Shown here: positions 38,601 through 53,839 of the stretch, one piece after another
How the letters are laid out: every line of letters begins with the position of its first letter
How positions within the stretch are numbered: the stretch's first letter is position 1
Source of the DNA: Aureimonas sp. Leaf324
GTDB lineage: Bacteria > Pseudomonadota > Alphaproteobacteria > Rhizobiales > Rhizobiaceae
DNA length: 64,000 nt
Reading direction: 5' to 3'
Assembly (NCBI RefSeq): GCF_001423245.1
Contig: NZ_LMOH01000012.1
Coordinates: forward strand, 311,970-375,969
The notes under the pieces: model-generated
Databases searched by the model: none
Seen by the model: only the letters and a program-made list of their open reading frames with translations
What the model was told of the DNA's origin: nothing
Translations under genes and position numbers: made by a program

Positions 38601-39581
38601 GCCCCCATAGGCCGGGCCGCCGTCGACGCGGCTGACGACGCGCGCGCCCTCGCGCCCGACCCCGCCCGCGCTCCAGCGCTCCGTCTCGTCGCGCTCCGCC
38701 GTCTCGACGCCCGGTCGGCACCTCGCCGACCCCGCGCGCAGGTCGTCGGCGAACCAGGCGACGACCAATGCCGCGCGCTCCAGCGCGGGGCACAGCGCGG
38801 TCAGCTCGTCGAGCGACGCCACGAAGTCGCTCCCGCCGTGCAGGACGTTGCGGTTCACCAGCCGGTCCTGTCCCTCGCCGATACGCTCGCGCACGACCAC
38901 CGGGTCGAGCCCGTGCTCCGTCGCTCCGGGGATGATGGTGATCGCCCGGATACGCTCTTCGAGCGCGCCGACCGGCCGCAACACCTCGCAGGAGATCTGC
39001 GGAATGCGGTTGCCCCATCGCTCCAGCGGCAGCCGCTCCAAGACGAGGTAGGCCGTGCCGCGATAGGCAGGCGCCCGCCCCGCGCCCTGCCGTGCCTCGA
39101 TCAGCGGGTCGGGCGCCTGCGTCTCGGTCCCGTGGTGGAGCCGCCAGGTCACCTCCGCGAGATCGAGTTCCTCCCCGTCCGCCCAGACGCGCCGCACGCA
39201 GGCGATCGGCCCCTCGCACAGCGCCACCGCCACGTTGCCGAAATAGCTGTAGACGGTCGTCTCGGTGGCTCCCCGGCTGCCGCCACCCTTCCCGCCCTGC
39301 CGGTCGGTGCGGGTCGCCTCCTCGAACCGCGTCGTCCAGATCACCTGCCCCGCGACCCGCGCCGTGCCGTAGACCCGCGCGACGCCGCCGCCCTCGTCGG
39401 CCTCCATCACGCGGCTCGCGCGCAGCCGTCCGCTCTCGCGCCGCGCCCCGCGCCCCATCAGCCGGTTGTCGAGCGCGTAGCCGCCGAGCGCCCCGATCGC
39501 CCGGCCCGCGACCGCCCCGAACGGGCCGCCGACAAGGCCGCCGAGCGCGCCGCCCGCCGCCTGCAGAAGAATGGTCGCCAT
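35670..39581 (-). CDS. GTA host-specificity/tail tip protein (gene 15-like)
   Basis: A 1303-residue structural protein matching the length of the Rhodobacter capsulatus GTA gene 15 product, the large hub and receptor-contact protein of the tail. It has a Gly-rich N-terminus (GGALGGLVGGPFGAVAGRAIG), a long phage hub segment with a TIM-barrel glycoside-hydrolase-like region (WSYRRMILHQAWLARSAGGVDAFVIGSEMRGLT; WADWSEYFGYQPGG-type pattern; KPIWFTELGCPAIDKG), and beta-rich C-terminal parts. A (FDA)n tract at about residues 770-786 is encoded by a 9-base tandem repeat. It starts 3 bases after gene 14. It is intact although the upstream cluster is broken. Confidence 0.92.
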   Translation of the reverse strand: MATILLQAAGGALGGLVGGPFGAVAGRAIGALGGYALDNRLMGRGARRESGRLRASRVMEADEGGGVARVYGTARVAGQVIWTTRFEEATRTDRQGGKGGGSRGATETTVYSYFGNVAVALCEGPIACVRRVWADGEELDLAEVTWRLHHGTETQAPDPLIEARQGAGRAPAYRGTAYLVLERLPLERWGNRIPQISCEVLRPVGALEERIRAITIIPGATEHGLDPVVVRERIGEGQDRLVNRNVLHGGSDFVASLDELTALCPALERAALVVAWFADDLRAGSARCRPGVETAERDETERWSAGGVGREGARVVSRVDGGPAYGGTPSDAGVRRAIAALRRKGLKVTFYPFLLMDVPPGNGLPDPYGGPEQAAFPWRGRMTLDIAETLSGSSDGTAAARAEIARFVGRARESDFTLDGDGIRYVGPAEWSYRRMILHQAWLARSAGGVDAFVIGSEMRGLTRLRDEAGRFPFVEALIELGRDVKAILPEALVTYAADWSEYFGYQPGGGDVFYNLDPLWAEPAIGAVGIGNYLPLSDEGDRGESGSRDGTASPYDLDGLVAGIAGGEYADWYYPDDDARRRGDRVAITDRLDKPWVFRAKDLLSWWRLPHFERRAGVEATAPTAWVPMSKPIWFTELGCPAIDKGAGQPNVFVDPKSAESALPHFSTGARDELIQRRFIEAHQRHWDETADGFIAARNPVSPVYGGRMVAADAIHLWTWDARPYPAFPERATLWRDGGNWQRGHWLNGRLGRAPMDGLIATLLRDHGFDAFDAFDAFDAFDAFDVSEVDGVVGGFVVSGPGSARGELEELMRLTGIEAVARGGVLRFRSVGRRGVSPEPIVTVDPPDEAAIEVRRFDDGETPGEIVVGFGDAERSYRPGAAEAMLPGRSKPGQATVELPISLTEDEARRLAEGLLEREAGDREIARFALSPAAIEVGPGDRIMIEGRSESWQVTRIEDGMARRVEARLVRRGASERSGEPPAPVPETAGPVFASRPAVSLLDLPKLDAGLGGAMIAVSARPWMPYVVMASPGAGGHRAALTVASAATAGRLAAPLAPGREEILDRTHALLVDLATGSLASASAGLVDAGQNTAAIAVGDGWEVVRFRGAEEIAPSRYRLTGLQRGVGGTGEEAAIGAIAGAAFVLLDRAAQSLNLAEGEAGVEVDWLTVPAGRGLDDGAADRRTAALGQRALRPLSPVHLKGRLGAEGLDLGWIRRTRSPDPAWDGIDVPLDEDRERYRVTLSDGAGPMWELTVETAGLRVPAADLAIRFGGLPVRLEIEVAQISQRYGPGAPARLVLGGM
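37223..37274. repeat. 9-base tandem repeat inside the gene 15-like frame
   Basis: CATCGAACG is repeated five times perfectly (37223-37267), with a sixth partial copy to 37274. On the coding strand it gives an (FDA)n run. The unit is a multiple of three, so slippage changes length without frameshift. Confidence 0.9.
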
Positions 39582-39584
39582 GGT

Positions 39585-40028
39585 TCAGACCTCGTCGGGA
39601 AAACGGAAGGTGGCGGCGATGCGCCCCGCCCAGCCGGGCGTCAGCGGCGAGGACAGGACGCTCGCCCCCTGGTAGGCATGGATGAGACGCGCGCCGCTCT
39701 CGTCCGGCTCGTCTAGGAGCCCGCAATGCCGGGCCGGCCCTGCATCGCGCCAGCGAAACAGCACCAGATCGCCCGGCAGCCCGTCGCCGGCCGCGACGCT
39801 CACGAAATGCCGCCGCGCCGCCTCCAGCAGCGGATCGCCGCGTCCGGTCTCGGCCCAGTCCGGCGAATACGGGCCCGGCGCCTCCGACTCCCGCCCGTAA
39901 AGCTCGCGCCAGACACCGCGCACGAGACCGAGGCAATCGCACCCGACCCCGCGCCGGTGCCCCTGGTGCCGGTAGGGCGTCCCGATAAAGGTCCGCGCCA
40001 CGGCCAGTGCCCGCTCCCGCGCGCTCAC
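39585..40028 (-). CDS. GTA peptidase, NlpC/P60 family (gene 14-like)
   Basis: A 147-residue putative cell-wall hydrolase carried by GTA tails to cross recipient peptidoglycan. The NlpC/P60 signature is GVGCDCLGLVRGVWRELYG with catalytic cysteine at C32, a later RWRDAGPARHCGLL histidine, and HAYQGASV. The GTG start at 40028 (VSARERALAVARTFIGTPYRHQG) overlaps the stop of the truncated gene 13 by four bases (GTGA), the coupling expected in the intact cluster. Length is normal for the family. An ATG-based longer frame to 40205 is shadow. Confidence 0.88.
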   Translation of the reverse strand: MSARERALAVARTFIGTPYRHQGHRRGVGCDCLGLVRGVWRELYGRESEAPGPYSPDWAETGRGDPLLEAARRHFVSVAAGDGLPGDLVLFRWRDAGPARHCGLLDEPDESGARLIHAYQGASVLSSPLTPGWAGRIAATFRFPDEV

Positions 40029-40297
40029 GGCACCACCGCCGATCCATCGTGCCGCGCATCGCTCTTCGCTACCGCCAAAGCGGCGTCGGCACCGGGGATG
40101 TGCGGGAAGCCCCGGAAGTTCAGCCCGTTGCCGAACCGCTCCCGGCAGGTCGTGAAGCTCCAGTCGCATCCGGCCACGAGTTCCGCCTCGTCGCCCGGGC
40201 GCCACCGGGGCGGCACGCTCTCCACAAGTTCCACGACGACGAGGCCATCATCGCCAAACCGCAAAGCCCGAACGCTCCGCGCCGGCAGACCGCGCCG
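40025..40297 (-). pseudogene. GTA gene 13-like (DUF2163) C-terminal remnant
   Basis: About 90 codons remain of a gene that is normally about 290. The readable part RSVRALRFGDDGLVVVELV...GCDWSFTTCRERFGNGLNFRGFPHIPGADAAL is the C-terminal DUF2163 domain of GTA gene 13, a baseplate hub protein with a conserved Cys pair (WSFTTCRERFGN). The 5' two thirds are missing: upstream of about 40297 the sequence becomes a Mu gp36-like gene in another frame. There is no ATG or proper ribosome site; a TTG at 40264 could at best start a 79-residue fragment. The four-base overlap with gene 14 is preserved. Confidence 0.8.
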
Positions 40298-40554
40298 TCC
40301 TTCTCCGGCTTCGAATGGAGGTAGAAGCGCGCGATGTCGGCGGCGGTCTTCACCAGGGCCGGCGGGACCGCCGCGAGCGGCAGGGCGTGGACCTTGCCCA
40401 CGTAGCCGTCGATCAGCGCGTCGGCGTCGGCCAGCGCGCGCCCGACCACAGTCTGGTCGATCACGCTCGCCGGCCGGTTCGTGCGGTCGGTGAGCTGGAT
40501 CAGCTCCCGGTCGCCGAAGCGGTCGATCAGGTCCTGGAGGGAGGCGTAGCTCAC
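40120..40554 (-). CDS. Mu gp36-like (DUF1320) protein with replaced C-terminus
   Basis: Residues 1-87 are a DUF1320/Mu gp36-like head protein: SYASLQDLIDRFGDRELIQLTDR, VVGRALADADALIDGYVGKVHALPL, VPPALVKTAADIARFYLHSK. After about residue 88 the frame enters DNA of the GTA gene 13 remnant out of frame, giving an unrelated Arg/Ala/Ser/Gly tail to a stop at 40120. The normal last 45 or so residues (a charged helix) are lost, so the product is probably non-functional. The GTG start at 40554 overlaps the stop of the acyl carrier protein gene by four bases. Confidence 0.72.
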   Translation of the reverse strand: MSYASLQDLIDRFGDRELIQLTDRTNRPASVIDQTVVGRALADADALIDGYVGKVHALPLAAVPPALVKTAADIARFYLHSKPEKDGAVCRRGAFGLCGLAMMASSSWNLWRACRPGGARATRRNSWPDATGASRPAGSGSATG

Positions 40555-40820
40555 CGGCCGAAATCCCGCGCGCCGATGCGCAGCTCGACGGCGCGCGCGA
40601 ACTGGCCCACCGTCCGGCTGGTCTCGACCAGCTCGTCGGGGATCTCGACCTCGAACGCTTCCTCCAGGTCCATCGCCAGCTCGACGCGATCGAGGCTGTC
40701 GGCGCCGACGTCGTCGAAGAGATCCGTGTCGGCCGAGATCTTGGCGCGGTCGACCCCGTGGCGATCGGCCACGAGAGCGGCGACGCGGTCGAGGATGGGC
40801 GTGGTCGTGGCGTCGTTCAC
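40551..40820 (-). CDS. Acyl carrier protein encoded in the Mu-like prophage remnant
   Basis: An 89-residue four-helix acyl carrier protein. The phosphopantetheine site is VGADSLDRVELAMDLEEAF with S42 in the DSL motif; the flanking ISADTDLFDDVG and VEIPDELVETSRTVGQFARAV segments are typical. It lacks fabF or other lipid genes around it. GTG start 40820 with GGGAG 6 bases upstream. Its stop overlaps the start of the Mu gp36-like gene by four bases, so the ACP gene belongs to the phage operon rather than the host backbone, occupying the place of gp35 relative to Mu. Whether it is activated by the host phosphopantetheinyl transferase, and what acyl group it carries, is unknown. Confidence 0.88.
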   Translation of the reverse strand: MNDATTTPILDRVAALVADRHGVDRAKISADTDLFDDVGADSLDRVELAMDLEEAFEVEIPDELVETSRTVGQFARAVELRIGARDFGR

Positions 40821-40898
40821 GGCAGGCTCCCGGTTGAAAGGGTGCCCGTTCCGAAAGGAGAACGGAGCCGAAGCCCTCGCCGGACCGCGCCGGGACGC

Positions 40899-41144
40899 CT
40901 AGGCGTTCGAGCGGATCGGTTCGATATCGAGATGCGCGAAGAGCCTGTTGATCTCCTTCGCCACGAAATCCGAGCCGTTGTCGGTCTTGATCGCGGTCGG
41001 CACGCCGAAGGCGAGGATGCGCGAGCGGAACTCGTCCGCGTTCCAGCCCTCGCGCTCCGCAAGGTCGTTCACGCCTCTCTTGGTCGCCGGCATCTGCGGC
41101 AGATTGGCGTCGGCGATCTCCTGTGCAGTCAGCCACTCCTTCAT
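40899..41144 (-). pseudogene. Collapsed Mu-type transposase (MuA-like) remnant
   Basis: An 81-codon frame joins two distant pieces of a Mu-type transposase that is normally about 650-720 residues. Residues 1-36 (MKEWLTAQEIADANLPQMPA, then TKRGVNDLAEREGW) are the N-terminal winged-helix domain that binds the internal enhancer. Residues 38-81 (ILAFGVPTAIKTDNGSDFV, then AKEINRLFAHLDIEPI) are from the DDE catalytic core, containing the second catalytic Asp (TDNG). The first Asp, the Glu and the whole C-terminus are missing. The deletion is in frame. Start ATG 41144 overlaps the upstream stop by four bases, showing its original operon place. Confidence 0.78.
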
Positions 41145-41368
41145 GACGTAGCTCCTGCGACCCTGGCCTTGATCTTGGCCTCGTTCCGTTCGAGCCACCG
41201 CAGTGTCGCGATGCCGGCGCGTAGGCGCGCGATGTGCATCTCACCGACGCTCTCGCGCATGGTGCCGCGCTGCACCGCTCGCGTGACCTCGGTCTCGCGA
41301 AGGCGGGATGCCAGCTCCATCTCTTGGATCTGAGAAGCGATAGCGATCATCTGACGGCCTTCGCTCAT
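41141..41368 (-). CDS. Small prophage early-operon protein, hypothetical
   Basis: A 75-residue, mostly helical, charged protein (MSEGRQMIAIASQIQEMELA...). No domain recognised. Both ends overlap neighbours by four bases (ATGA with the 154-residue gene upstream and with the transposase remnant downstream), which strongly supports translation as part of the phage early operon. Confidence 0.62.
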   Translation of the reverse strand: MSEGRQMIAIASQIQEMELASRLRETEVTRAVQRGTMRESVGEMHIARLRAGIATLRWLERNEAKIKARVAGATS

Positions 41369-41829
41369 CGACGCCCCCGGACCTTGGCCTGAAGGGCAGA
41401 CTTGCGGGCGGCGACCTCGCGCTCGTGCTCCTCGATCTCGTGCAGCTCGATCAGATCGACGTAGCGATCGGCGACGACTGCGCACCCGAACATCGCGGGC
41501 ATGAAGCCGAGGAGGCGAAGGTCGCGGGTGACGTGGACGAGCGCGATGAAGCAGTCGAGATCGATACGGCGGTCGTCCGCCGCCTCGCTGGCCCACTTGT
41601 CGATCGTCGCCTTCGCGATCGGCCGATCAAGGTATTCGCCCATCGCCCGCGCGATGTCGTTCCGGTCCATGCCGGCATCCTTGGCGTCGGCCAGGGCCCG
41701 CGCCAGAAAGCGCGCGATGCGGCTGGAGAGGTCACCGCGTCCCGTCACTTCCTCGTCGAAGCCGACGCGGACGGTCTGCGCCTCCCAGGCGAGCAGGTCC
41801 TTCGTGTGGGGGTCGCGGTGACGGGTCAT
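41365..41829 (-). CDS. Prophage early-operon protein of unknown function
   Basis: A 154-residue cytoplasmic protein without a recognised domain. The centre (GMDRNDIARAMGEYLDRPIAKATIDKW) looks like a helix-turn-helix, followed by SEAADDRRIDLDCFIALVHVT and a hydrophobic FMPAMFGCAVVAD segment; the C-terminus is a basic helix. It begins one base into the ParB-like stop (TGATG) and ends with a four-base overlap to the next gene. Proteins with this layout next to Mu-type transposases may be regulators or transposition accessory factors, but I cannot assign one. Confidence 0.65.
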   Translation of the reverse strand: MTRHRDPHTKDLLAWEAQTVRVGFDEEVTGRGDLSSRIARFLARALADAKDAGMDRNDIARAMGEYLDRPIAKATIDKWASEAADDRRIDLDCFIALVHVTRDLRLLGFMPAMFGCAVVADRYVDLIELHEIEEHEREVAARKSALQAKVRGRR

Positions 41830-42692
41830 CAGCCGACCGCCTTCAAAGCCGGGGCGATACGGGTGGAGGCGCGCCTCATGGCGAGCCATTCCTCGAACTC
41901 CGCCGCGTTCAACTCGAAGAAGGCGTGTCGCTCAGCCGGCTTCCAGGCGACGAACCGCTCCTGGAAGCGCTCGTAGTTGGCCTTCTCGACGACACCGGCG
42001 CCACCGGAGAGCAGCATGATAGCCGTGGAGACGCTGTCGGCGCGCGCAGGCTCTGCAGTGAGCATCTCGACCACGGCGACCTGTCGGGGCTGCGCGAGGT
42101 CGGCCAGCATCAGCAGCTCGGATTGCTTTCGGGCGATGGGATGGAGGGCAATGCAACGCGCCGTCTCATCCGGGATCGTCGCGACCTTCAGCGCGAGAAA
42201 CAGACTGCGTCGGCTGATCTGGAGCGCCTCTTGGGCGGCGTCCGAGAAATTGAGTGCAAACTTTGCACTCAATTCGTCGGCCTCCTGCGGCGTGCGCGGC
42301 TTGGGCTTCCGGCCGGGCTTCGCCGGGGCGTGAACGGTCTCGTACACGGCCCGCCATGCGGCGATGTAGCGGGCTCGATCCAGCACGGTCGGCTCGCCGC
42401 GCATCATGTCGGCCTTGATCTCGGCAAGACGCGCCGACGCCTCGTCCGGCAGGGCGCCAGCCGGCTTGACCTTGGCCTCGATCTCGTCCCAGGCCAGCAA
42501 GGCGGCTGCGGCAAGGCGGCGCGCGCCCGACACGAGCTGGAAGCGATCGCCGCGCTCGACAACGCGGATCGGCTCCTCCTGACCACCGACCGCCATGTCG
42601 TCGGCGAGGGTGCGCACCCATGCAGGGTCGAGGACACGCAGGCGGTTGCCGGCGTCGATCATCGCGATCGGGATTTGACGCATCACGGACAT
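41829..42692 (-). CDS. ParB-like nuclease domain protein of the prophage
   Basis: A 287-residue protein with an N-terminal ParB/Spo0J-type domain: IPIAMIDAGNRLRVLDPAWVRTLADDMAVGGQEEPIRVVERGDRFQLVSGARRLAAAALLAW (shown here only to position the box), where QEEPI and GARRLAAA are the nucleotide-box hallmarks. A middle region has a helix-turn-helix-like AQEALQISRRSLFLALKVA and a C-terminal helical part. No parA is adjacent, so plasmid-style partition is unlikely; ParB-like genes occur in the early operon of alphaproteobacterial Mu-like phages. The ATG at 42692 overlaps the 82-residue gene by 10 bases; the stop shares one base with the next gene. Confidence 0.82.
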   Translation of the reverse strand: MSVMRQIPIAMIDAGNRLRVLDPAWVRTLADDMAVGGQEEPIRVVERGDRFQLVSGARRLAAAALLAWDEIEAKVKPAGALPDEASARLAEIKADMMRGEPTVLDRARYIAAWRAVYETVHAPAKPGRKPKPRTPQEADELSAKFALNFSDAAQEALQISRRSLFLALKVATIPDETARCIALHPIARKQSELLMLADLAQPRQVAVVEMLTAEPARADSVSTAIMLLSGGAGVVEKANYERFQERFVAWKPAERHAFFELNAAEFEEWLAMRRASTRIAPALKAVG

Positions 42693-42931
42693 GCAGTCGC
42701 GCTTTCCATTGCAGTGAAGAGGTCGGGGGTGGTGGCCCACGTCGGCTTGAGCGACAGCCGGGCGGTGGTGACCATGCGGGCGCGGGCGCGCTCACGGGTT
42801 CGGCGAAGGTGATGGGCGGGAGCCCTTGGATCGACGGCAAGCTCCGGCTCCGGCATCGCCAGGACCGCCGCCGGATGAAGGCGGGCGAACTGCGTGCAGC
42901 GGGACAGGAACTCGTCGACCGTCGGGCTCAC
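42683..42931 (-). CDS. Small prophage protein, hypothetical
   Basis: An 82-residue frame from a GTG at 42931 that begins immediately after the stop of the 36-residue gene and overlaps the ParB-like start by 10 bases. The first half (TVDEFLSRCTQFARLHPAAVLAM) could be helical; the second is basic (HHLRRTRERARARMVTTAR). No family recognised. Operon position supports it; the GTG start and lack of homology keep confidence modest. Confidence 0.5.
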   Translation of the reverse strand: MSPTVDEFLSRCTQFARLHPAAVLAMPEPELAVDPRAPAHHLRRTRERARARMVTTARLSLKPTWATTPDLFTAMESATACP

Positions 42932-43042
42932 TCACCGCATCTCCGGCCGGCAGATCGCAATCAGCCCAATGCCCACCGCGAGCCCGATCAGGGCCGCCGG
43001 AGCACCGGAAACGATCATGGTTAAGATTTCCCAGGCGCTCAT
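42932..43042 (-). CDS. Tiny membrane protein of the prophage early operon
   Basis: A 36-residue frame: MSAWEILTMIVSGAPAALIG followed by LAVGIGLIAICRPEMR, essentially one membrane helix with a basic C-terminus. ATG at 43042; its TGA is adjacent to the GTG of the next gene. Short single-helix proteins are common in phage early operons, sometimes acting in exclusion or as holin partners; no function is assigned. Confidence 0.45.
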   Translation of the reverse strand: MSAWEILTMIVSGAPAALIGLAVGIGLIAICRPEMR

Positions 43043-43077
43043 GCCGAGGCCCGCGTTTCGTCAGTGAGGGTGTCGCG

Positions 43078-43359
43078 CTATGAGCGGGACTCCGGGACGG
43101 GCTTTGCGATAGGTTTCCGCAGGCTTGAACGGCTCTGGATGAAACCGGTCGGGAACAGCTCTTCGAAGGGGATGCCAAGCGCGGCCGCAATCGCGTCGGC
43201 ACCCCGGCGGCTTAGCCCCAGAAAGGCACGCCGAACGGCGTGCGGGGGAAGGCCCGCCTGACGAGCGATCTTGGCCTGCGTGAGGTTCTGACGGCGGATC
43301 TCCGCCTTGATCCCCTCCGCGTCCCATTCGGTGGGTGGCTTGGGTGCCGCCTTGGTCAT
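43078..43359 (-). CDS. Ner/Nlp-like DNA-binding regulator of the prophage
   Basis: A 93-residue protein with a lambda-repressor-like helix-turn-helix: EWDAEGIKAEIRRQNLTQAK, IARQAGLPPHAVRRAFLGLS, and RRGADAIAAALGIPFEELFP. The W..(A/E).IKA..R....T...(I/L)A...GL......A......AE..IA.ALG..P..(I/L)WP pattern is that of Mu Ner and its Nlp relatives, which repress early lytic transcription. It is the first gene of the leftward early operon and divergent from the repressor gene, exactly as ner and c are in Mu. The C-terminal 20 residues (basic, Ser-rich) are extra. Confidence 0.82.
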   Translation of the reverse strand: MTKAAPKPPTEWDAEGIKAEIRRQNLTQAKIARQAGLPPHAVRRAFLGLSRRGADAIAAALGIPFEELFPTGFIQSRSSLRKPIAKPVPESRS

Positions 43360-43407
43360 TCAGCTCTCCGGAGGCTGGCCCGCACGCCAGCTTTTTTCGG
43401 GGGTTGT

Positions 43408-43461
43408 GGTTCGTTTGGTGGTCCGTCCGATGGTTCGGCCGGTGTTCTGTTTGGTGGTACG
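43408..43461. promoter_or_regulatory. Direct repeats between ner-like and repressor genes, candidate operators
   Basis: GGTTCGTTTGGTGGTCCG (43408-43425) and TGTTCTGTTTGGTGGTACG (43443-43461) share a GTTyGTTTGGTGGTmCG core and start about 35 bases apart on the same DNA face range. They sit in the 186-base gap between divergent phage regulators, where Mu has its operators O1-O3. The region is unusually G/T-rich on this strand. Confidence 0.5.
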
Positions 43462-43545
43462 AAGTTCGGACAGATGTTGCCGGGTATCAAGACAAATCCG
43501 TCTTCCCAGATCCTAAATTCGTCCGCGCAGCGGGTTCGTTAGATT

Positions 43546-44334
43546 ATGCCAACGAAATCAATGGGATATGACGGAGACGGTGGCGGCGTGCCATCTGGGA
43601 ACGAGGTTCCCGCTTCGAAGGCAGGCCTTGCCGACCGGGTTTCCCAGATCGCGCGCGAGCTGGGATCGGACAAATCCGTCCAGGCGACGGGCAAAAGCTG
43701 GAAATCGCTGCTTCGATACATGGAAGGGTACGATCCGCCCGTGAGCGTCCTGGTCGGACTGGCGAAGGCGGCCTCTGTCCACATCAATTGGCTGGCAACC
43801 GGAGAAGGCCCCCGTGACTCTTCGGAGCCGGTGCGCCAGATACGGGAGAGAACACAACCGGAACAAACGGGAGTGCCTGCCGTGATCCACACCGACCCGA
43901 TCGACCTCGAGGACGACGCTATGGTGTTAATTCCGCTGCTCGATGTGCAGCCGTCAGCAGGTGCGGGGACGATTGTCGAGGCGGAGCCCGTCGTCGGGCG
44001 CGTCGCGTTCGACGCAGCTTGGCTGCGGGCGCGCAGCATCACGCCGCACGCTGCGAAGGTGCTCACCGCACGCGGCGACTCGATGGAGCCGACGATCCGG
44101 AGCGGCGACACGCTGATCATCGACACGGCGATCGATCAGGCCGTCGATAACGGCATCTACGTGTTGGTCTACGGGGATGCGCTGCTGGTGAAGCGCCTGC
44201 GAATTAAGCTCGATCGCACGGTCGTCATCACCAGCGACAACAAGGATGCCGGCTTCGAGGAGACGGTCACCCCCGACCAGCTGGACATCCTGCGCATCGC
44301 CGGCCGCGTCATGTGGTACGGCCGAATGATCTAG
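43546..44334 (+). CDS. Prophage CI-type repressor with S24 peptidase domain
   Basis: A 262-residue LexA/CI-like repressor. The N-terminal part (ADRVSQIARELGSDKSVQATGKSWKSLLRYMEG) is a helix-turn-helix, followed by HINWLATGEGP, a common phrase in phage repressors. The C-terminal S24 domain has S179 (TARGDSMEPTIRSGDTLII) and K216 (DALLVKRL), and a possible Ala-Gly cleavage region (PSAGAG at 136-141). It probably maintains lysogeny and may self-cleave under RecA stimulation. ATG 43546 is the first of several possible starts, with 43561 an alternative. Divergent from the ner-like gene and reading toward the prophage left end, as c does in Mu. Confidence 0.85.
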   Translation: MPTKSMGYDGDGGGVPSGNEVPASKAGLADRVSQIARELGSDKSVQATGKSWKSLLRYMEGYDPPVSVLVGLAKAASVHINWLATGEGPRDSSEPVRQIRERTQPEQTGVPAVIHTDPIDLEDDAMVLIPLLDVQPSAGAGTIVEAEPVVGRVAFDAAWLRARSITPHAAKVLTARGDSMEPTIRSGDTLIIDTAIDQAVDNGIYVLVYGDALLVKRLRIKLDRTVVITSDNKDAGFEETVTPDQLDILRIAGRVMWYGRMI

Positions 44335-44388
44335 GTTCGCAAGGAAACAGCGACTCTAGGTAACGGCTGAAGGTGGAGGTGAGCGTCG

Positions 44389-44973
44389 ATGCGGTCTGAA
44401 GAAGAGCAGGCGGTCTTAGAGCAGCAAGCCCACGCGCACATGATGCGTATGCAGGAGGCCGCAGACCGCAGCTTCAGCTATGATGACCGTGGCATGGTTA
44501 TCTCTTACTGCGCCTACATTGAGGAAACGCTTGAAGAAGTGATCCTGCGCAGGCTCGTCGACTGCAAACAGGCGAGAGACTTGCTTCAAAAGCCTGGGGG
44601 CGCAATCAGCGAGTTCTACGCTCGCGCTCGGATGGCTCGCGCTTTAGGGTGCATTGACGACCAGGATCTCGCAGATCTGAAAATCATGGCGAGCATCCGC
44701 AACAAGGCTGCGCATTCGTGGCAGCCATTCGACTTTGAAGAGCGACCGATATCCGACATGGCGCGCAATATGAGCCAAGCCCGATATCTCGTGCCCGAAA
44801 ATAACACCCGTCGCCTACAGTTTGCCAAGCGAGCCACAGAGTTGCTGCTCACAATTGGATTACTCTCCTTCTGGACGGATCGTCCCCTTGGCAACGGGAC
44901 ATTCATGCTCCAACGAATTGACCAGATCGCGTTCGAGGTTCGTTTGGTGCCCAGAGCATCTACTGAAACCTGA
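44389..44973 (+). CDS. MltR/DUF4145-like protein between repressor and prophage end
   Basis: A 194-residue cytoplasmic protein. The pattern RMARALGCIDDQDLADLKIMASIRNKAAHS is that of the MltR (mannitol operon regulator-like) and DUF4145 group, whose IRN.AAH motif also recalls HEPN folds. It is less GC-rich than surrounding host genes, suggesting recent transfer. GGAGGTGAG lies 7-8 bases before the ATG. It follows the repressor by 54 bases in the same direction, so both may be expressed in the lysogen. In Mu nothing but attL lies here; this gene is an accessory (moron-like) cargo. A defence or regulatory role is possible but unproven. Confidence 0.75.
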   Translation: MRSEEEQAVLEQQAHAHMMRMQEAADRSFSYDDRGMVISYCAYIEETLEEVILRRLVDCKQARDLLQKPGGAISEFYARARMARALGCIDDQDLADLKIMASIRNKAAHSWQPFDFEERPISDMARNMSQARYLVPENNTRRLQFAKRATELLLTIGLLSFWTDRPLGNGTFMLQRIDQIAFEVRLVPRASTET

Positions 44974-45002
44974 ATTGGGGCCTTGGCGCTTGGCAATTCT
45001 GG

Positions 45003-45184
45003 CCATCTGATCTTGCGCAGCCCGCTCGGACGGAACGGTGTTTTGCCATTCGATCTTGCGCCTAACGGAACCGGAATCAACGCGAGTTTGATGGCGTAAA
45101 GCCCGCAATTGTTGGGTCTGGACCGCTTGTTTCCGGTCAGTCCCGCCAAATCCCGGTTAGTGCCACTCGTTCTTGCGCGTTACA
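45003..45184. promoter_or_regulatory. Mu-like prophage left end with three transposase-binding-site-like repeats
   Basis: Three copies of a CCAyyyGwTCTTGCGC box occur at 45163-45178, 45046-45061 and 45003-45018. The prophage terminus is proposed at 45184, where the sequence leaving the phage is TACA (TGTA read inward), matching the TG...CA ends of Mu. Measured inward from the terminus, the boxes begin near bases 7, 124 and 167, close to the spacing of Mu L1, L2 and L3. The five flanking bases GGTCC (45185-45189) would be the target duplication, whose partner is lost with the other end. Confidence 0.75.
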
Positions 45185-46374
45185 GGTCCGTAGCCCACCG
45201 CCTCGCGTTTCTCGTCCTCGTCGAGGAAAGCCGCCGCGCCGACCCGCGCCCACAGCGCCTCGCGCTCGACCGAAAGTCCCTCGATCCGGTCGGCGTCGAA
45301 GCCGAGCCGCAGATCCCGCCCGCCCTCGAAGAAGGGGCCGAGCCAGTTGCCGAGCGCGCCGGACAGCCGCGAGACCAGCGGCAGCACGGTCAGCCGCAGG
45401 AGCGCCCGGTTGGCCTCGGCATAGTTGGCATAGGTCGCGTCGCCCGGAATGCCGAGCAGCATGGGCGGCACGCCGAAGGCGATCGCCACGTCCCGCGCCG
45501 CGCCGTTGCGCGCTTCCATGAAGTCCATGTCGCGGGGGCTGAGCGCCATCGCCTTCCAGTCGAGCCCGCCTTCCAGAAGCATCGGCCGCCCGGCGCGCGC
45601 CGCGCCGGAATAGCCGCTTTCCAGCTCCGTCTTCAGCCGCTCGAACTGGTCGCCCGTCAGGTTGCCGCCATCGCCGGGCTGGTAGACCAGCGCGCCGGAC
45701 GGCCGGGCCGAATTGTCGAGCAGCGCCTTGTTCCAGCGCGTCGCCGCGTTGTGGAGATCGAGCGCTGTCTGCGCCGCGCCGACGGGCGCGAACCCGTCCG
45801 CCTCGCTCAACGGGTGGAACAGCCGGATCGCCAGCACCCGCGCCGGTCGCTCGCCGTCGCCCTCCAGCGGGATGCGCCGGACGCGCCCGCCGACCCGCTG
45901 CTCCACTGCCTCCGGCCAGCCGTCCGCCGACGATACCGTTCGGATCTGGTCCGGCCGCAGCGCATGAAGCTGCCGGGGCCGCTCGTCGAGAACGCTCGCC
46001 TCGACATGCGCCGCGCCCGACAGGAGAAGATGCCCGACCAGCGTCTCGATCAGCGCCGGCCCATCCTGCAATCCGTTCGGCTGGCGCAGGAGATCGAGCA
46101 GCGGATGCGCCTCCACCTCGCGCCGCCCCTCGTAGAGAACGAAGGTCACAGCCGCCGTGGTCTCGGCGATCAGCCGCACGCAGCGATAGACCAGCGGATT
46201 GCGCATGAACCCGGCGCGCGCCAGCGACCCGTAGGATCGCTCCGTCCAGTCCGCCTCGTCCGCCGCGCCCGCAAACACCAGCGCCCCGCCACCGGCACCC
46301 GAGCGCACCTCCGGCGCCCCCGCCGAGACAGGCGCCAGCCCCGCCAAAGCCCTCAGCCTCGTCGTCAAACCCAT
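45157..46374 (-). CDS. GTA portal protein (gene 3-like), C-terminus altered by prophage end
   Basis: A 405-residue HK97-type portal protein: the early RNPLVYRCVRLIAETTAAV motif, LDLLRQPNG, FHPLSEADGFAPVGAAQTALDLH, LDNSARPSGALVY, MDFMEARNGAARDVAIAFGVPPMLLGIPGD and YAEANRALLRLTVLPLV are all family features. In GTAs it forms the dodecameric head vertex through which DNA is packed. The last eight residues (VTRKNEWH) and the stop are encoded by the end of the Mu-like prophage, which joins after the proline codon of EAVGYGP. The rest is intact. It follows gene 2 by 40 bases; gene 4 (protease) should come next but is absent. Confidence 0.88.
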   Translation of the reverse strand: MGLTTRLRALAGLAPVSAGAPEVRSGAGGGALVFAGAADEADWTERSYGSLARAGFMRNPLVYRCVRLIAETTAAVTFVLYEGRREVEAHPLLDLLRQPNGLQDGPALIETLVGHLLLSGAAHVEASVLDERPRQLHALRPDQIRTVSSADGWPEAVEQRVGGRVRRIPLEGDGERPARVLAIRLFHPLSEADGFAPVGAAQTALDLHNAATRWNKALLDNSARPSGALVYQPGDGGNLTGDQFERLKTELESGYSGAARAGRPMLLEGGLDWKAMALSPRDMDFMEARNGAARDVAIAFGVPPMLLGIPGDATYANYAEANRALLRLTVLPLVSRLSGALGNWLGPFFEGGRDLRLGFDADRIEGLSVEREALWARVGAAAFLDEDEKREAVGYGPVTRKNEWH

Positions 46375-46414
46375 CTCATGTCTCCGTTGAACGGAATGCG
46401 TTAAGCGGCTGACG

Positions 46415-47707
46415 TCACAGCCGTCGAATGCGCGGCTCGCTGCGCGGTTGGCTGAGCGCCGTCACCGCCCAGACCATCGCGTCCAGCCGGTCCGGCGAGC
46501 GGCCGTTCGACAGGCCGTCCGTGCCGAAATCGCAGAGCTCGTCCTCGAGTTCGGCAAAGCTACCCGCATGGCGCACGCGCCCCTGCTCGTAGAGCGCGGC
46601 CACGGGCTCGGCCCGCACCCACTTGCCCCGCGTGGCCCGCACGCTCGACACGGGCACGTCGGGCGCCACCGCCCGCAGCACCGCCTCCACCATCTCGCCG
46701 CCCTGGTTCACCTCGGCGACGATCCGGTCGGCCTCGAGTTCGCGAAAGAGACCGACCGCCGCGCCCGCCCACTCCGGCGGCTTCAACCCGCGCCGGCTCC
46801 GGTCGGCCAGGACATAAATCGTCCCGTCCCCGGCCAGCCCCGCCGCCACGATGCCGCAGGCATCAGACGCCCGGCCCGACGAAGCGGGCGGGTCGATGGC
46901 CACCACGATCCGGTTCAGCGCGGGCGCCGCCCGCACCCGCAGCCGGTCGATGGCCACACGGTCGAACAGCGCGTCCTCGCGCGCCTCGATCATCTCGCCG
47001 TCGAGTTCCTGGCGCGCCAGCCGCGAGCCGCCGTAGCGGGCGTCCATCGCCGCGACGAAACCGTCGGCGAGATTGCCGGCGTTCTCGGCGGTCCGCATGC
47101 GCGTCACCGCCGTTCCCGCCTCCCCCATCAGCCGCTTCAGGATCGGCACCGCGCGCGGCGTCGTGGTCAGCACCATGCGCGGGTTCGCGCCCAGCCGCAG
47201 CGCCAGTTGCAGGTTGTCGAAACAGTCCTCGCCATAGGTCCATTTCGCCAGCTCGTCGCCCCAGGCGGCGTCGAACTGGTAGCCGCGCAGCGCGTCGGGA
47301 TCTTCGGATGAAAACACCTGCGCCACCGCCCCGTTCGCGAAGACAAGCCGCCGGCGCGAGGCCTCGAAGACGGGGCGCGTCTCGTAGTCGAGCGCGCGAA
47401 GCCCGCTTTCGCCCTCTACCATCACCTCGCGCGCATCGCCCAGCGTCTCGGCCACCAGCGCGATGCGCCCGTGGACGCACGCGCCGATCGGCGCCTCGCC
47501 GAGCGCCATCGCTCGCACCCACTCGGCCCCCGCCCGCGTCTTGCCCGACCCGCGCCCGCCGACCAGCAGCCATTGCCGCCAGTCGCCCGGCGGCGGCAGC
47601 TGCGCCGGCCGTGCGCAGGCGGCCCAGGGCGGCATCGCCCCGCGCAGGACATGCGCCGGCTGCCCCGCCAGTTCGCGCTCGACATCGCGCCAGAATGCCG
47701 TCGCCAT
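46415..47707 (-). CDS. GTA large terminase (gene 2-like)
   Basis: A 430-residue DNA-packaging ATPase-nuclease. The Walker A is GGRGSGKTRAGAEW near residue 50. RGYQFDAAWGDELAKW holds the Walker B/coupling acids, followed by TTTPRAVPILKRLM. The RNase H-like nuclease domain has VVAIDPPASSG, EVNQGGEMVEAVL and a terminal DRLDAMVWAVTAL Asp. It matches terminase_6 GTA proteins and phage relatives. The first base of its ATG is the last base of the gene 1 stop. It appears intact, but packaging would have no capsid from this locus. Confidence 0.92.
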   Translation of the reverse strand: MATAFWRDVERELAGQPAHVLRGAMPPWAACARPAQLPPPGDWRQWLLVGGRGSGKTRAGAEWVRAMALGEAPIGACVHGRIALVAETLGDAREVMVEGESGLRALDYETRPVFEASRRRLVFANGAVAQVFSSEDPDALRGYQFDAAWGDELAKWTYGEDCFDNLQLALRLGANPRMVLTTTPRAVPILKRLMGEAGTAVTRMRTAENAGNLADGFVAAMDARYGGSRLARQELDGEMIEAREDALFDRVAIDRLRVRAAPALNRIVVAIDPPASSGRASDACGIVAAGLAGDGTIYVLADRSRRGLKPPEWAGAAVGLFRELEADRIVAEVNQGGEMVEAVLRAVAPDVPVSSVRATRGKWVRAEPVAALYEQGRVRHAGSFAELEDELCDFGTDGLSNGRSPDRLDAMVWAVTALSQPRSEPRIRRL

Positions 47708-48087
47708 CAGGCCGTGCCCCTTTCATCCGGCACCGACGCCTCGAACAGGCCGGGCGCGCCGCCTCGCCGCGCGTCGATCGCCTTCAGCCGCTTCAGCATC
47801 TCGGCGCGCAACGCATCGGCCTGCGCCGTGTCCTCGCGCCGCCCCGTCTCGCGGGACAGAGCTTCCAGCTGGCGAAGCTCCAGAAGCTTCTCCAGGGTGC
47901 GCGTCAGCTGCGAGATCGCCTCGACGCGCGCCTTGGCTTCGCCTGCGCGCTCCGACGCGGTCTTCTTCGGCATCGGCTCGCCCGGCGTCTCCGACACCCG
48001 CCGCGGCCGTTTCTCCAGCGCCGAGACCTCGGCGGTCAGCGCCGCGAACAGTCGCTCCGACAGAAGCGTCTCGTCCGGCTTCCCCAT
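47707..48087 (-). CDS. GTA gene 1-like protein (small terminase candidate)
   Basis: A 126-residue, strongly helical charged protein (AGEAKARVEAISQLTRTLEK, LLELRQLEALSRETGRREDT) with coiled-coil heptads. Its position as the first gene of the cluster, sharing a base with the large terminase start, is that of GTA gene 1, which is now regarded as a divergent small terminase. Sequence identity within this family is low, so the call rests mainly on position and predicted structure. The GTA promoter should lie in the 133 bases upstream, where a direct repeat TTTTCCTATTTC (48211-48222, 48229-48240) is seen. Confidence 0.75.
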   Translation of the reverse strand: MGKPDETLLSERLFAALTAEVSALEKRPRRVSETPGEPMPKKTASERAGEAKARVEAISQLTRTLEKLLELRQLEALSRETGRREDTAQADALRAEMLKRLKAIDARRGGAPGLFEASVPDERGTA

Positions 48088-48220
48088 GCCACCCCGCTTT
48101 CCGGAAACGCAGAAGGCGGCCGTCCCCTGCCGGGAAGCGACCGCCTTCGAAACGCACCAATTCGACTATGCCTGAACCCTACACCGGCACCGTCACGTGG
48201 TCAATGATAATTTTCCTATT

Positions 48221-48709
48221 TCAGACGGTTTTCCTATTTCCGGGCTGTTCGCCCTCGCCGGGATCGTCGCCCGGCCACGCGGCGAGGTGGTCCTCGTAGT
48301 CCTCCGGCTCCATCCCCTCCTCGCTCACCGTGCGCCCCCGCACCGAGACGCCCGCCTGGTGCACCGTGTCCGGGTCGCCCGACACGAGGTGGTGCCACCA
48401 GTAGAGCGGCCGCCCTTCCGCGATCAGCCGGTAGCCGCAGGACGGCGGCAGCCAGGCGATCGAGCGGACGAGATCGGGATCGAGCGTCACGCAGTCCGGC
48501 ACGCTCGCATGCCGGTTCGCGTAGTCGGCGCAACGGCAGCTCGCACCGTCCAGCATGTGGCAGGCGACGTTGGTCCAGATGATCTCGCCGGTGTCCCAGT
48601 CCTCCAGCTTGTTGAGGCAGCACCGGCCGCAGCCGTCGCACAGCTGCTCCCACTCCTCCGCCGTCATTTCGTCGAGCGATTTGCGCGCCCAGAAGGGTGT
48701 TTCGTTCAT
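48221..48709 (-). CDS. YcgN/UPF0260 family cysteine-cluster protein
   Basis: A 162-residue cytoplasmic protein of the YkgJ/UPF0260 class. The Cys-rich pattern is complete: [20 protein letters not shown], then [25 protein letters not shown] and [25 protein letters not shown]. Eight or more cysteines are placed for a metal or Fe-S centre. The biological role of the family is unknown. The start at 48709 ([15 protein letters not shown]) matches family members; the longer frame is shadow. It lies between the GTA cluster and a divergent penicillin-binding protein gene. Confidence 0.88.
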
Positions 48710-48878
48710 CTTGCTCTGCGATCCGTGGAACCCGTGGGCCGCGCCTCGGAACCGCCCATATACGTCTGCATTGGATGGCCTTTCCGGGCCGACGATGCCG
48801 ACGGCTGATTGTCTCGCCGACAGGTTCTTGTAAGATGGTTCGACGCGTCGAAGCGGCGCGCCGGGGGATGGGCTGACC

Positions 48879-51041
48879 GTGCCGAAACTGTTTTCGTCCA
48901 AGCCGAAGGGGCGGCGCGCTCCATCCCGACTGATGGAAGTCGATGCTTGGCTGGATACCACGCTCTGGCGGCTTTTCCATGGCTTTTCCGGCGCTTGGGA
49001 AAGCGTCACCATCGCCTCGCGCCGCTTTCGCGTGCGCGGCTTCAACCGCGTCGTCGTGGAGCTCTGCTGCGAGACGCTGACGATCGGCCTCGCCGGCTTC
49101 ATCGTCCTCCTCGTCCTCGCCCAGCCCGCCATGAAGAAGACCGTCGCCGGCCTTCCCCAGCAGGCCGACTATTCCGTCCTCTTCCTTGACCGGCACGGCA
49201 ACGAGATCGGCCGCCGCGGCATCCTCAAGGCCGACGCGGTTCCCATCGACGAGCTGCCCGACCACTTCGTCAAGGCGGTGCTCGCCACCGAGGACCGGCG
49301 CTTCTTCGAGCACTGGGGCATCGACTTCATCGGCCTCGGCCGCGCGCTCGGCCAGAACGCGCGGGCCGGCGGCGTCGTCCAAGGCGGCTCGACGCTCACC
49401 CAGCAGCTCGCCAAGAACGTCTTCCTCTCCAACGAGCGCTCGCTGGAGCGCAAGATCAACGAGGCCTTCCTCGCACTTTGGCTCGAAGCCAATCTCACCA
49501 AGCGCGAAATCGTCGGCATGTATCTCGACCGTGCCTACATGGGCGGCGGCGCCAACGGCGCGGCGGCGGCGGCCGAGTTCTATTTCGGCAAGAACATCCG
49601 CGACGTGAACCTCGCCGAGGCCGCCATGCTCGCCGGTCTCTTCAAGGCGCCGACGCAGTACGCGCCCCACAACAACCTGCCGGCCGCCCGCGCCCGCGCC
49701 AACGTCGTCCTCAGCGCGATGGTCGATTCCGGCTTCATGACCGAGGGCCAGGTCGTCGCCGCGCGTCGCCATCCGGCGACCGCGGTCGACCGCTCCGTCA
49801 TCAAGTCGCCGGACTACTTCCTCGACTTCGCCTTCGACGAGATCCAGCGCATCGCCGCCGACCTGCCGCAGCGCACCTTCGTCGCCCGCACCACGATCGA
49901 CATGGGCCTCCAGCAGTTGGCCGACGAATCCGTCGATTTCCACCTGCGCCAGTACGGCAAGACCTTCGGCGTCGAGGAAGGCGCGATGGCAGTGATCGCC
50001 GACGACGGGGGCGTCGTCGCCATGGTCGGCGGCCGGGACTACGGCCTGTCGCAGTTCAACCGAGCCACCCGAGCGCTCCGCCAGCCGGGCTCCTCGTTCA
50101 AGGCCTATGTCTACGCGCTCGCCATGGAGAACGGCCACAAGCCGACCGACATGATCGTCGACGGTCCGGTCAGCGTCGGAAACTGGTCCCCGCAGAACTA
50201 CGGCCTGAAATACGCCGGCCGTCTGCAGATTCAGGACGCGATGGCCCGCTCGCTCAACACGGTCGCGGTCAAGCTCAGCCAGGAGAAGGGCGCCGGCCCC
50301 GGCAAGGTGGCCGAGCTCGCCCGCAACATGGGCGTCGAAACCCCGCTGCGCGGCGACAAGACCATCGCGCTCGGCACCAACGAGGTGACGATCCTCGATC
50401 AGGCCACCGGCTATTCCGTCTTTCCCGCCGGCGGCCTGACGTCGAACCGTCACGCTGTCCAGCAGATCACCGATGCCGAGGGCCACGTCCTCTGGGATGC
50501 CGAGCGCGACATGCCGCCGCGCCGCCGCGTCCTCTCGGAGCAGGCGACGAAAAGCATGAACCAGATGTTCGTGCGCATTCCGGAGGTCGGCACGGCCCGC
50601 CGCGCCCGCCTGTCGATGACGCGCGCCGGCGGCAAGACCGGCACCACGCAGAGCTATCGCGACGCCTGGTTCGTCGGCTTCACCGGCAATTTCACCGCCG
50701 CCGTCTGGTTCGGCAACGATAGCTACAAGCCGACCAACAAGCTGACCGGCGGCGGCCTTCCCGCCATGACCTGGCAGCGCTTCATGGAGGCGGCGCATCA
50801 GGGCATCGAGCTGCGCCCCATCCCCTATATCGACGACCCGATCCCCGCCCCCGGCTCGATCGACGTGCCCAAGCCCGAGGGCGAGGACGCGCCGCAGATC
50901 GCCCGCCCGGCGCTGATCAACAACAACACCCGGCGCGTCCTCTCCGACCTCGAGCTCCTGCTCTCGACGCTTCAGCCGACGACGCCCGAGAAGTTCGCGT
51001 CGTCGCGCGCCGACGGTCTCGAACCCAGCGTCAGCCGCTGA
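48879..51041 (+). CDS. Class A penicillin-binding protein (PBP1A family)
   Basis: A 720-residue bifunctional peptidoglycan synthase. One membrane helix (about 61-82) follows a basic cytoplasmic tail. The GT51 glycosyltransferase domain has [16 protein letters not shown] (E138) and [13 protein letters not shown] (168-180). The transpeptidase domain has the serine motif PGSSFK (S405, K408), SLN (458-460) and KTGTT (from K586). It polymerises and cross-links wall in the periplasm. The start is a GTG at 48879 with GGGGG about 9 bases upstream. Length is shorter than E. coli PBP1a because the extra domain is absent. Followed by two DUF membrane genes. Confidence 0.92.
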
Positions 51042-51087
51042 CGGAACGCCTCTGGCGCGCCGGCCGGATCGGGGTCATACACCGCCC

Positions 51088-51675
51088 ATGCGATTTCTCG
51101 TCCTCACCCTCCTCGCCATCGGCGTCGCGCTGGGCCTCGGCACATGGTCGGCCGCGCGCATGCTCGAAAGCTACGAGGGCGCGGACATCCAGGTCGTCGG
51201 CCCGTGGCACGCCAACCGCACCGCCGGCTCACCGACCGCGGATCCCTATTCCAAGGCCCGCCTTGCCCGCTCCGGCGACCTGACGCTCGGCCTCGGCGAA
51301 GGGGTGGCGTTCCAGGCCCGCGTCGACACGCAGGGGCGCGAGCTTCGCCGCGAGTGCGACTACCGGCTGGAGGGCGCCTACCCGCCCGCCCGCATCGCGA
51401 CGCTCTCGGCCTTCGACTTCGCGGGCCAGCCGATCCCGGTCACCGAGGGCCGTCCGTCGCATCTCGTGTCGCTGAACTGGATGCGCTCCGACGACAACCG
51501 CGCGCTGGTCTCGGTCGGTCCGCGCGCCGAGCCGGGCAACTGGCTGGCGGTCGAGGGCAACGGCGGATACGTCCTCGCCCTCACCTTCTACGACACCCCG
51601 ATCTCGACGGACATCGGAGCCGCGCCCATCGCCATGCCCTTCATCGTGCGCACGGGCTGCCTCGTCGATGGGTAA
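51088..51675 (+). CDS. DUF1214 domain membrane protein
   Basis: A 195-residue protein with an N-terminal helix (MRFLVLTLLAIGVALGLGTW) and a periplasmic beta-rich DUF1214 domain: YSKARLARSGDLTLGLGEGV, ECDYRLEGAYPPARIATLSAF, LVSVGPRAEPGNWLAVEGNG, LTFYDTPIS. It is followed by a DUF1254 gene with an 8-base overlap; the two domains are often fused in one protein elsewhere, so the products probably form a complex. Rhizobial genomes carry this pair next to penicillin-binding protein genes, which suggests an envelope role, but the function is unknown. Confidence 0.84.
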   Translation: MRFLVLTLLAIGVALGLGTWSAARMLESYEGADIQVVGPWHANRTAGSPTADPYSKARLARSGDLTLGLGEGVAFQARVDTQGRELRRECDYRLEGAYPPARIATLSAFDFAGQPIPVTEGRPSHLVSLNWMRSDDNRALVSVGPRAEPGNWLAVEGNGGYVLALTFYDTPISTDIGAAPIAMPFIVRTGCLVDG

Positions 51676-52258
51676 GCTCCTTCTCGCCATCCTCGTCGGG
51701 CTCGTCGGCGCGGCGATCATCCACATCGCCATCATCTTCTCGATCCCGATGCAGGCGGAGAACGACGCCTGGGCGCGCCTCGCGCGTTTCGGCGACCTGT
51801 TCTCCGTGGTGCGGGTCGGCGAGCCGCCGGCCGCCGTGGCCAACCAGCCGGCCGCCGCAGCCTTCGCCTTCATCGATCCGGCCTTCATCGACGTCGCCTG
51901 CCGCTTCACGCTGGAGAACGGACCCGTGCGCGTAACGGCCGAGGAGCGGACCGGCTTCTGGACTGCGTCGGTCTACGCCCGCAACGGCGACAATCTCTTC
52001 AGCATCAGCGAGCGCGTGGCGCTCGAAGGCGCGCTCGATCTCTTGATCGGCACGCGCGAGCAGCTCGATCTCGCCCGCGTCGAGGGTTCGGAACTGCCGG
52101 ACCAGACGGTCTCCGTCGAGTTGCCGAACGAGGAAGGCTACATGACCGTCCGCTCGCTGGTCGATTCGGAGAGCGAGCGTCCGTTCGTCGATCGCTTCGC
52201 CCGGTCCATCGTCTGCCGGCCGGCCACGCCCGAGGAAGCCGGTCGCCCCGCCGAATAG
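51668..52258 (+). CDS. DUF1254 domain membrane protein
   Basis: A 196-residue protein with an N-terminal membrane helix (LLLAILVGLVGAAIIHIAII) and a periplasmic domain (FIDPAFIDVACRFTLENGPV, RTGFWTASVYARNGDNLFSI, then a C-terminal FVDRFARSIVCRPA). The two cysteines could form a disulfide. It overlaps the DUF1214 gene by 8 bases, implying coupled translation. A short perfect hairpin (TCGAGCG/CGCTCGA, 52268-52284) lies just after the stop but has only a 3-base loop and no T tract. Confidence 0.82.
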   Translation: MGKLLLAILVGLVGAAIIHIAIIFSIPMQAENDAWARLARFGDLFSVVRVGEPPAAVANQPAAAAFAFIDPAFIDVACRFTLENGPVRVTAEERTGFWTASVYARNGDNLFSISERVALEGALDLLIGTREQLDLARVEGSELPDQTVSVELPNEEGYMTVRSLVDSESERPFVDRFARSIVCRPATPEEAGRPAE

Positions 52259-52318
52259 CCGGCGGCTTCGAGCGTCCCGCTCGATCGGACCCGCTTTCCG
52301 CGCGCCCGTCCCTTCGGC

Positions 52319-52519
52319 TTAGGCCGTCAGGTCCTGCCAGAGCTGGTCGTGGTTCGTCGACGCTGCGACACGCCTCGCTGACGGCGCATCTCGCAGCTCG
52401 ATCCGCTCGTAGCGGATACAGGGCAGGATCAGCACTTCGCCTGTCCGGGTCAGTGCTTCGCTCGGCGTCCTGCGGGTGTCGTCCCGCTTGGGGACGACGA
52501 GCCGGTGCACGTTGTTCAT
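52319..52519 (-). CDS. Small conserved-looking hypothetical protein
   Basis: A 66-residue frame with a very strong ribosome site (GGAGGCGAGG just before ATG 52519). The product is polar and basic at the start (MNNVHRLVVPKRDDTRRTPS), with LILPCIRYERIELRD in the middle and no signal peptide. No family recognised. Translation is supported by the ribosome site and isolated position; nothing can be said about function. Confidence 0.55.
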   Translation of the reverse strand: MNNVHRLVVPKRDDTRRTPSEALTRTGEVLILPCIRYERIELRDAPSARRVAASTNHDQLWQDLTA

Positions 52520-52791
52520 TCCTCGCCTCCTTCCCGAATCCGCGTTTCGGTCGCGGGAAGGCATCGACGAGGCGGCCGGTTCCTTCTCAAACGCCACACG
52601 AGGGGCGCCCGTCGTCTTCCCGCCAGAACTGTCGCGCACGCGCCTTGTCCGGCGCTGACCGCCGGTTGTGCGCCCGTGCCTTGCGGGTGCGTCAGGCGGG
52701 CGCAGGGTTCGCAGGGTTAACAGGTTGCTAAGGGATTGCGTCTAATCCTGTCGAACGGCCGGACACCACCCGCACATTCGCCTGGAGCCCC

Positions 52792-53835: not shown

Positions 53836-53839
53836 CGCC

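Follow-up and report, generated by a model that had tools for sequence, protein, structure and literature searches.

Enterobacteria phage Mu has TG...CA ends, is flanked by a 5-base duplication, and carries three left transposase sites located near bases 6, 111, and 151. The early regions of the phages RcapMu (NC_016165.1) and RR1-B (NC_021557.1) are arranged in the order of an outward-directed repressor gene, a Ner-like gene, small ORFs, a ParB-like gene, a regulator gene, and a transposase gene. The same order is found at the locus described here, and RcapMu also shares with it a gp36-like head-tail gene. The differences are that protein identity is low to moderate, with 29–52% to RcapMu, that the RcapMu ParB-like protein gave no match, and that identity to the RR1-B ParB-like protein is 33%.

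For phage KS10, four putative 15-base sites are given in the available part of PMC2628397. The available part of PMC12486242 describes Mu-like Citromicrobium phages with 5-base duplications of the consensus NYSRN, and GTA-like genes as neutral targets for Mu-type phages. PMC3338782, in the portion at hand, points out that a gene hit by a Mu-like insertion will likely lose its function.

In this study, the window, which is the whole stretch of 64,000 nucleotides of Aureimonas sp. Leaf324 DNA that was analyzed, was compared with these systems and with the genomes of relatives. A Mu-like phage very likely inserted at the end of the GTA portal gene of this strain, and later deletions left a 4.9-kb remnant in a gutted GTA cluster. 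The GTA genes are numbered here according to the R. capsulatus scheme. The case is a combination of known processes and involves no new mechanism. Its useful results are a tested signature for the ends of such phages and an example, exact to the base, of a transposable-phage insertion that went along with the loss of a GTA cluster. Among the literature matches listed, the titles and abstract openings contain no description of GTA loss with a Mu-like insertion, and no GTA cluster carrying a Mu-like insertion is mentioned in the available parts of PMC9836097, PMC8601537, and PMC5488378.

Left End of the Phage DNA

The phage left terminus is TGTAA on the minus strand (TTACA on the plus strand) at 45180–45184, where 45184 is the final phage base, and it reads TGTAAC inward. 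Three boxes on the minus strand follow the terminus. L1 (45163–45178) is an exact match to CCAYYYGWTCTTGCGC and starts 6 bases inside the terminus; L2 (45046–45061) starts 123 bases inside it, which gives a spacing of 117 bases from L1; and L3 (45003–45018) starts 166 bases inside it. At zero mismatch, CCAYYYGWTCTTGCGC matches exactly these three sites in the window, and the same three boxes are the sole exact matches in the 4.4-Mb genome. The original prediction had placed the boxes at about 7, 124, and 167 bases, which was confirmed and becomes 6/123/166 when the bases before each box are counted. It had also identified the terminus as the left end of a Mu-like phage that can be placed to the base, and this is borne out by the matching ends of the related prophages described below.

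The three boxes are phage end sites, and they presumably bind the transposase. Their sequence differs from that of the Mu sites. The ends of RcapMu and RR1-B were considered as the same box type and rejected, as no window-type box was found in RcapMu or in the RR1-B end stretches searched. A promoter and terminator scan of 43300–45300 gave nothing.

Only a left array is present at this locus, and it is matched by relatives. The single end match in the Leaf324 genome at ≤2 mismatches to the end pattern defined below is the left end in the window, and no right end was found at this threshold, which a more diverged end would escape. Judged by its position, GGTCC at 45185–45189 on the plus strand is expected to be the lone surviving copy of the target-site duplication. 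Because the other junction and the partner copy have been lost, the 5-base duplication is not demonstrable for the window copy.

Ends of Related Prophages

In a DNA search of 199 family genomes, some match was found in 112, mostly as short stretches, many of them in the ACP gene. The best relative was a genome of the same genus, G079, which contains a complete prophage of 47.1 kb (C34:222190-269320) with the junctions CGAGA|TGTAGC...GTTACA|CGAGA. The boxes of its right end, TGTAGC, begin after 6 and 28 bases, and those of its left end, TGTAAC, after 6 and 123. This prophage resembles the window in the TGTAAC terminus, in the 117-base spacing of the left boxes, and in its early genes, whose protein identity is 37–88%. 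It differs in having both ends and the CGAGA duplication, in a third left box not being found at ≤2 mismatches, and in the absence of an ACP match; moreover, none of seven GTA proteins was matched in the 59 kb around the element.

Since the consensus in the original prediction had been derived from the window boxes themselves, outside boxes were used to assess chance occurrence. The left end of the G079 prophage, an element found by gene similarity, supplied two boxes as queries. The three window boxes differ from these by 1, 2, and 2 mismatches, and one further site in the window, at 1445, is also at 2 mismatches. With the same queries, a site at ≤1 mismatch occurred in none of 30 Markov-1 random windows, and any site at ≤2 mismatches in 5 of the 30. 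In G079, the first two left boxes are likewise spaced by 117 bases and lie as far from the terminus as L1 and L2 do. A scoring matrix was also derived from 13 other elements, which contributed 51 boxes. With it, the window boxes score 27.7, 27.2, and 23.8, followed by 11.4 for the next best site. There is some circularity in this matrix, as a pattern resembling that of the window had served to recruit every one of the 51 boxes and 12 of the 13 elements. A scan of 100 random windows, limited beforehand to sites with the GCAA core at ≤1 mismatch, gave one window with one hit of at least 23.8.

The end pattern, consisting of the terminus and the first box at ≤2 mismatches, was applied to 397 genomes of the order. 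It matched in 45 genomes, Leaf324 included, at 83 places compared with 10 for a reversed control; many of the places are single and unproven as elements. End pairs were defined as ends on the same contig that face inward and lie <60 kb apart, which gave 14 pairs, or 15 with G079. An exact 5-base duplication flanks 12 of the 14 pairs found by the pattern (11 identified by script and G382 by eye) and 13 of the 15 when G079 is included; the pairs lacking it are in G416 (208 bases apart) and G447 (8.9 kb apart). Because the pattern selected the 14 pairs, the first box is present in them by construction. This does not apply to the duplications, to any second or third box, or to the combination of TGTAAC with TGTAGC.

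In all 13 elements, one TGTAAC end is paired with one TGTAGC end. The second left box is located at 112–144 in 12 of the 13 and the second right box at 28 in 11 of the 13, and the full left layout of 6/123/166 occurs in two (G302 and G382). When set against phage Mu, R1 and R2 of the related elements start 22 bases apart; no third right box was found at ≤2 mismatches in about 400 bases of these elements. Four more loci were found by gene similarity. Three of them (G022, G014, and G141) have the terminus at 1–2 mismatches beside a repressor gene, the left boxes of G022 being at 6, 123, and 167, and the fourth (G123) has only a diverged terminus with 5 mismatches. Boxes of the window type thus do occur at the ends of related Mu-like prophages, which was one of the checks attached to the original prediction. 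The end signature comprises TGTAAC on the left, TGTAGC on the right, and boxes resembling GCGCAAGAWCRRATGG, which often lie at 6 and ~123 at the left end and at 6 and 28 at the right end. With this signature, the sequence by itself suffices to place both ends of related Mu-like prophages in Hyphomicrobiales.

The NYSRN target consensus (available part of PMC12486242) was also considered and rejected for these elements: GGTCC does not fit it, and by manual reading, two of the 13 duplications of the related elements do.

Gene Content of the Remnant

The phage DNA is a 4.9-kb remnant (40288–45184) and not a complete prophage. Its G+C content is 64.7%, against 72.6% and 72.7% in the flanks. Inward from the terminus, the genes encode a 194-aa ORF, an S24-type repressor, a Ner-like protein, an 82-aa ORF, a ParB-like protein, and a regulator, so that divergent repressor and Ner genes are followed by early genes as in Mu-like phages. 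The G079 prophage has its genes in the same order. Phage end and phage genes are present and mobility functions have been lost, which is the state of a defective prophage.

The 194-aa accessory ORF (44389–44973, plus strand) matches phrog_22031 and weakly the MtlR-like family PF05068 (E 0.0029, below its cut-off). It contains the R-x4-H stretch RNKAAH, which is reminiscent of HEPN-type nucleases; a defence-system search with this ORF (PADLOC) gave weak hits only. The repressor gene (43546–44334, plus strand) has an open frame with an S24 peptidase-type domain (PF00717, phrog_4) and 37% identity to the G079 repressor. In the gap between the repressor and Ner genes, 43406–43461 contains GTGGTTCGTTTG-like tandem repeats, in which a 20-base stretch occurs in four copies at 12-base steps; these repeats are candidate operators.

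The remaining genes are on the minus strand. The Ner-like repressor (43078–43359) matches phrog_769 and PF13693. It is followed by the conserved 82-aa early ORF (42683–42931), which has no family match and is 88% identical to its counterpart in the G079 prophage, by the ParB-like early protein (41829–42740; phrog_3264, 56% to the G079 prophage), and by the early transcriptional regulator (41365–41889; phrog_2345, 67.5% to the G079 prophage). A search of viral contigs with the ParB-like protein found no relative.

Instead of a complete DDE transposase and a MuB-type helper, there are two short transposase pieces. In the alignment of the MuA-type transposase remnant (40899–41198; phrog_310, rve below its cut-off), residues 1–42 of the 733-aa G079 transposase are fused to residues 337–370, after which the match is cut off. 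No MuB match was found among the scanned ORFs of 40288–45184.

The last two genes are an acyl carrier protein (ACP) gene (40551–40820; PF00550, NF002148 over cut-off), which has a 4-base overlap with the start of the next gene, and a Mu gp36-like head-tail gene whose 3' part is missing (40297–40560; PF07030, 52% to RcapMu gp45). Neither 64 viral contigs nor six gp36 loci from related genomes showed an ACP match next to gp36, and the lone viral contig with an ACP relative has no gp36 match. In view of the result for the viral contigs, a portion of the remnant may be of different origin.

Portal Gene and Outer Junction

The GTA portal protein (g3) is encoded at 45157–46374 on the minus strand and has 405 aa (PF04860 over 3-320/321; portal_HK97). 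Its frame reads ...GYGP|VTRKNEWH*, where the T of the proline codon CCT is the first phage base. As had been predicted, the portal frame crosses the terminus, and the final eight codons and the stop are supplied by phage DNA.

The junction was placed by comparison of the portal tail with uninterrupted GTA clusters; the closest portals are those of Aureimonas, and 80 related loci were compared, more of which exist. An alignment of L005, an Aureimonas cluster, read by eye, shows identity with the window to 45185 (GGNCC) and ends at the phage T. In all nine loci inspected, out of at least 80 related ones, homology is lost at 45188–45191. Portal homology to uninterrupted clusters therefore ends at the terminus, as was expected from the original prediction. 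A VTRKNEWH-like tail in portals of uninterrupted clusters would have spoken against the fusion, and the tails of the 80 related portals contain neither VTRK nor NEWH.

The length of the portal tail after the VGY motif varies, and 29 of the 80 portals end right at VGY, with L065 not parsed. In relatives the tail is short, variable, or missing altogether, so the stretch that gave way to the eight phage codons looks dispensable. Thus, the frame does cross the terminus as claimed, while the in-frame fusion has no evident meaning and, judged from these tails, looks incidental.

Loss of GTA Genes

The GTA cluster of an Aureimonas MAG (L004), which is uninterrupted, matches the window at 45191–54652 with 93.6% identity and at 37012–40287 with 91.5% identity. 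Between these matches, about 6.75 kb of L004 (9475 to 16237), including the capsid gene, has no counterpart in the window. Compared with the RcGTA-like clusters L004 and L005, the window keeps terminase, portal, g14, and g15 in order, whereas the region from g3.5 to the middle of g13 is gone and phage DNA is found instead. The conserved order of terminase, portal, protease, capsid, and tail genes is thus represented by terminase, portal, part of g13, g14, and g15.

These genes are all on the minus strand. The terminase large subunit (g2) is located at 46415–47707 (Terminase_6N/6C), the 3' part of g13 at 40025–40287, in a frame that differs from that of the gp36 piece, and the host-specificity/tail protein (g15, Rcc01698-like) at 35670–39581 (GTA_TIM, Rcc01698_C). 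The frame holding g14 (NlpC/P60) extends over 39585–40205, and its GTG start is probably near 40028. At the inner deletion junction (40287–40297), gp36 is joined to the middle of g13, and there is no phage end. DNA homology to L004 stops at 40287, and the g13 protein alignment extends weakly to 40324.

Among the relatives with loci >20 kb, the capsid gene, g6, the tail tube gene, and a tail gene are present in 65 of 65 and are absent from the window, and g3.5 and g13 are each present in 61 of 65. The window has no g3.5, and the end of g13 is all that it keeps of these six GTA genes. Given its place in the missing block, the protease gene would have been lost as well.

Relocation of the GTA block to another part of the genome was rejected at the DNA level, as only matches of 44 and 31 bases were found. 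The genome has one other capsid-family match (G000:C23), which was rejected as a GTA capsid since it shows no clear similarity to one (best E 0.15). The gene concerned (L235, G000:C23:161250-162053) perhaps belongs to another prophage.

Because about 6.75 kb including the capsid gene is missing from the genome, production of the GTA is very probably impossible, and particles of the Leaf324 GTA would accordingly be absent. The phage ends described here were found at no other GTA locus among 80 loci at ≤3 mismatches.

History of the Locus

The proposed history builds on the left-end layout, on both junctions as seen against an uninterrupted cluster, and on the gene losses, which are directly observed. 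A Mu-like transposable phage of the kind found in many Hyphomicrobiales very likely transposed into the last codons of the portal gene g3, and its left end (TGTAAC, boxes at 6/123/166) still marks the insertion site to the base. Because GTA-like genes are neutral targets in Citromicrobium (available part of PMC12486242), such an insertion needs no special targeting. Three deletions would have followed. One would have joined residues 1–42 of the transposase to a short segment from its catalytic core, and a second would have removed the middle of the phage, between the transposase and the ACP and gp36 genes. The third, starting inside gp36, would have taken out the phage right end along with the other target-site copy, what was left of the portal gene, and the region from g3.5 to the middle of g13. 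The inner junction lies within gp36, and it would therefore be the product of ordinary illegitimate recombination. The outcome is a block of open immunity and early-regulator genes within a GTA cluster devoid of its capsid and most tail genes.

Alternatively, the phage may have resided at another site within the GTA cluster or close to it, and an adjacent deletion made by its transposase may have brought the left end to the portal gene and removed GTA DNA at the same time. This would agree with the position of the GTA loss directly next to the remnant and with the missing target partner; since this partner is lost, the two origins are indistinguishable at the left junction. However, the inner junction inside gp36 is not a phage end, so that a second, ordinary deletion would be needed anyway, and insertion followed by deletion is an equally short history; we regard the alternative as unlikely.

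A further question is whether the remnant has been kept by selection as an immunity island, in which the open repressor protects against related Mu-like phages, the lytic genes being gone, and the boxes act as decoys for their transposases. Open frames are found for the repressor, the Ner and ParB-like proteins, and the regulator, and the transposase and gp36 genes are broken; potential targets of such protection are widespread, as judged from the end sites in the 45 of 397 genomes, some of them unproven as elements. Yet a recent event would leave the frames open equally well, and both the selected island and its combination of repressor immunity with decoys seem rather improbable. If the idea did hold, one selfish element would have taken the place of another at this locus.

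Misjoining of phage and GTA pieces during assembly or binning is conceivable for a 30-contig draft, but it is very hard to reconcile with one long contig that contains both junctions, with an outer junction exactly at the TG terminus, and with the absence of the missing GTA block from the rest of an assembly that is 99.93% complete. Finally, the intact Mu-like prophage in the portal gene implied by the original prediction, which was right about the genuine left end and is in keeping with the early gene order, is refuted unless the assembly is wrong, as only 4.9 kb of phage DNA is present, a right end was not found in the genome at ≤2 mismatches, and the transposase is in fragments that do not form a working enzyme.

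Other Elements with the Same Type of Ends

Several shorter elements were seen among the related genomes. The element L230/L231 (G302:C13:644937-670624) spans just 25.7 kb and has both ends, the duplication CCACC, and the 6/123/166 left layout. L229 (G436:C5:281455-290959) is 9.5 kb long and has both Mu-like ends with the duplication CCAGA; from its translations, read by eye, it seems to retain part of the head and tail genes only, like a natural mini-Mu.

Eight end-like places were found in G447 (C37:190156-190252 and C1:68620-77478; L233 and L234), including three same-strand end-like copies within about 100 bases and the inward-facing pair without a duplication. In L232 (G416:C28:14167-14374), inward-facing ends 208 bases apart carry four boxes, counted by eye, with no 5-base duplication, and this element resembles a deletion-derived miniature element.
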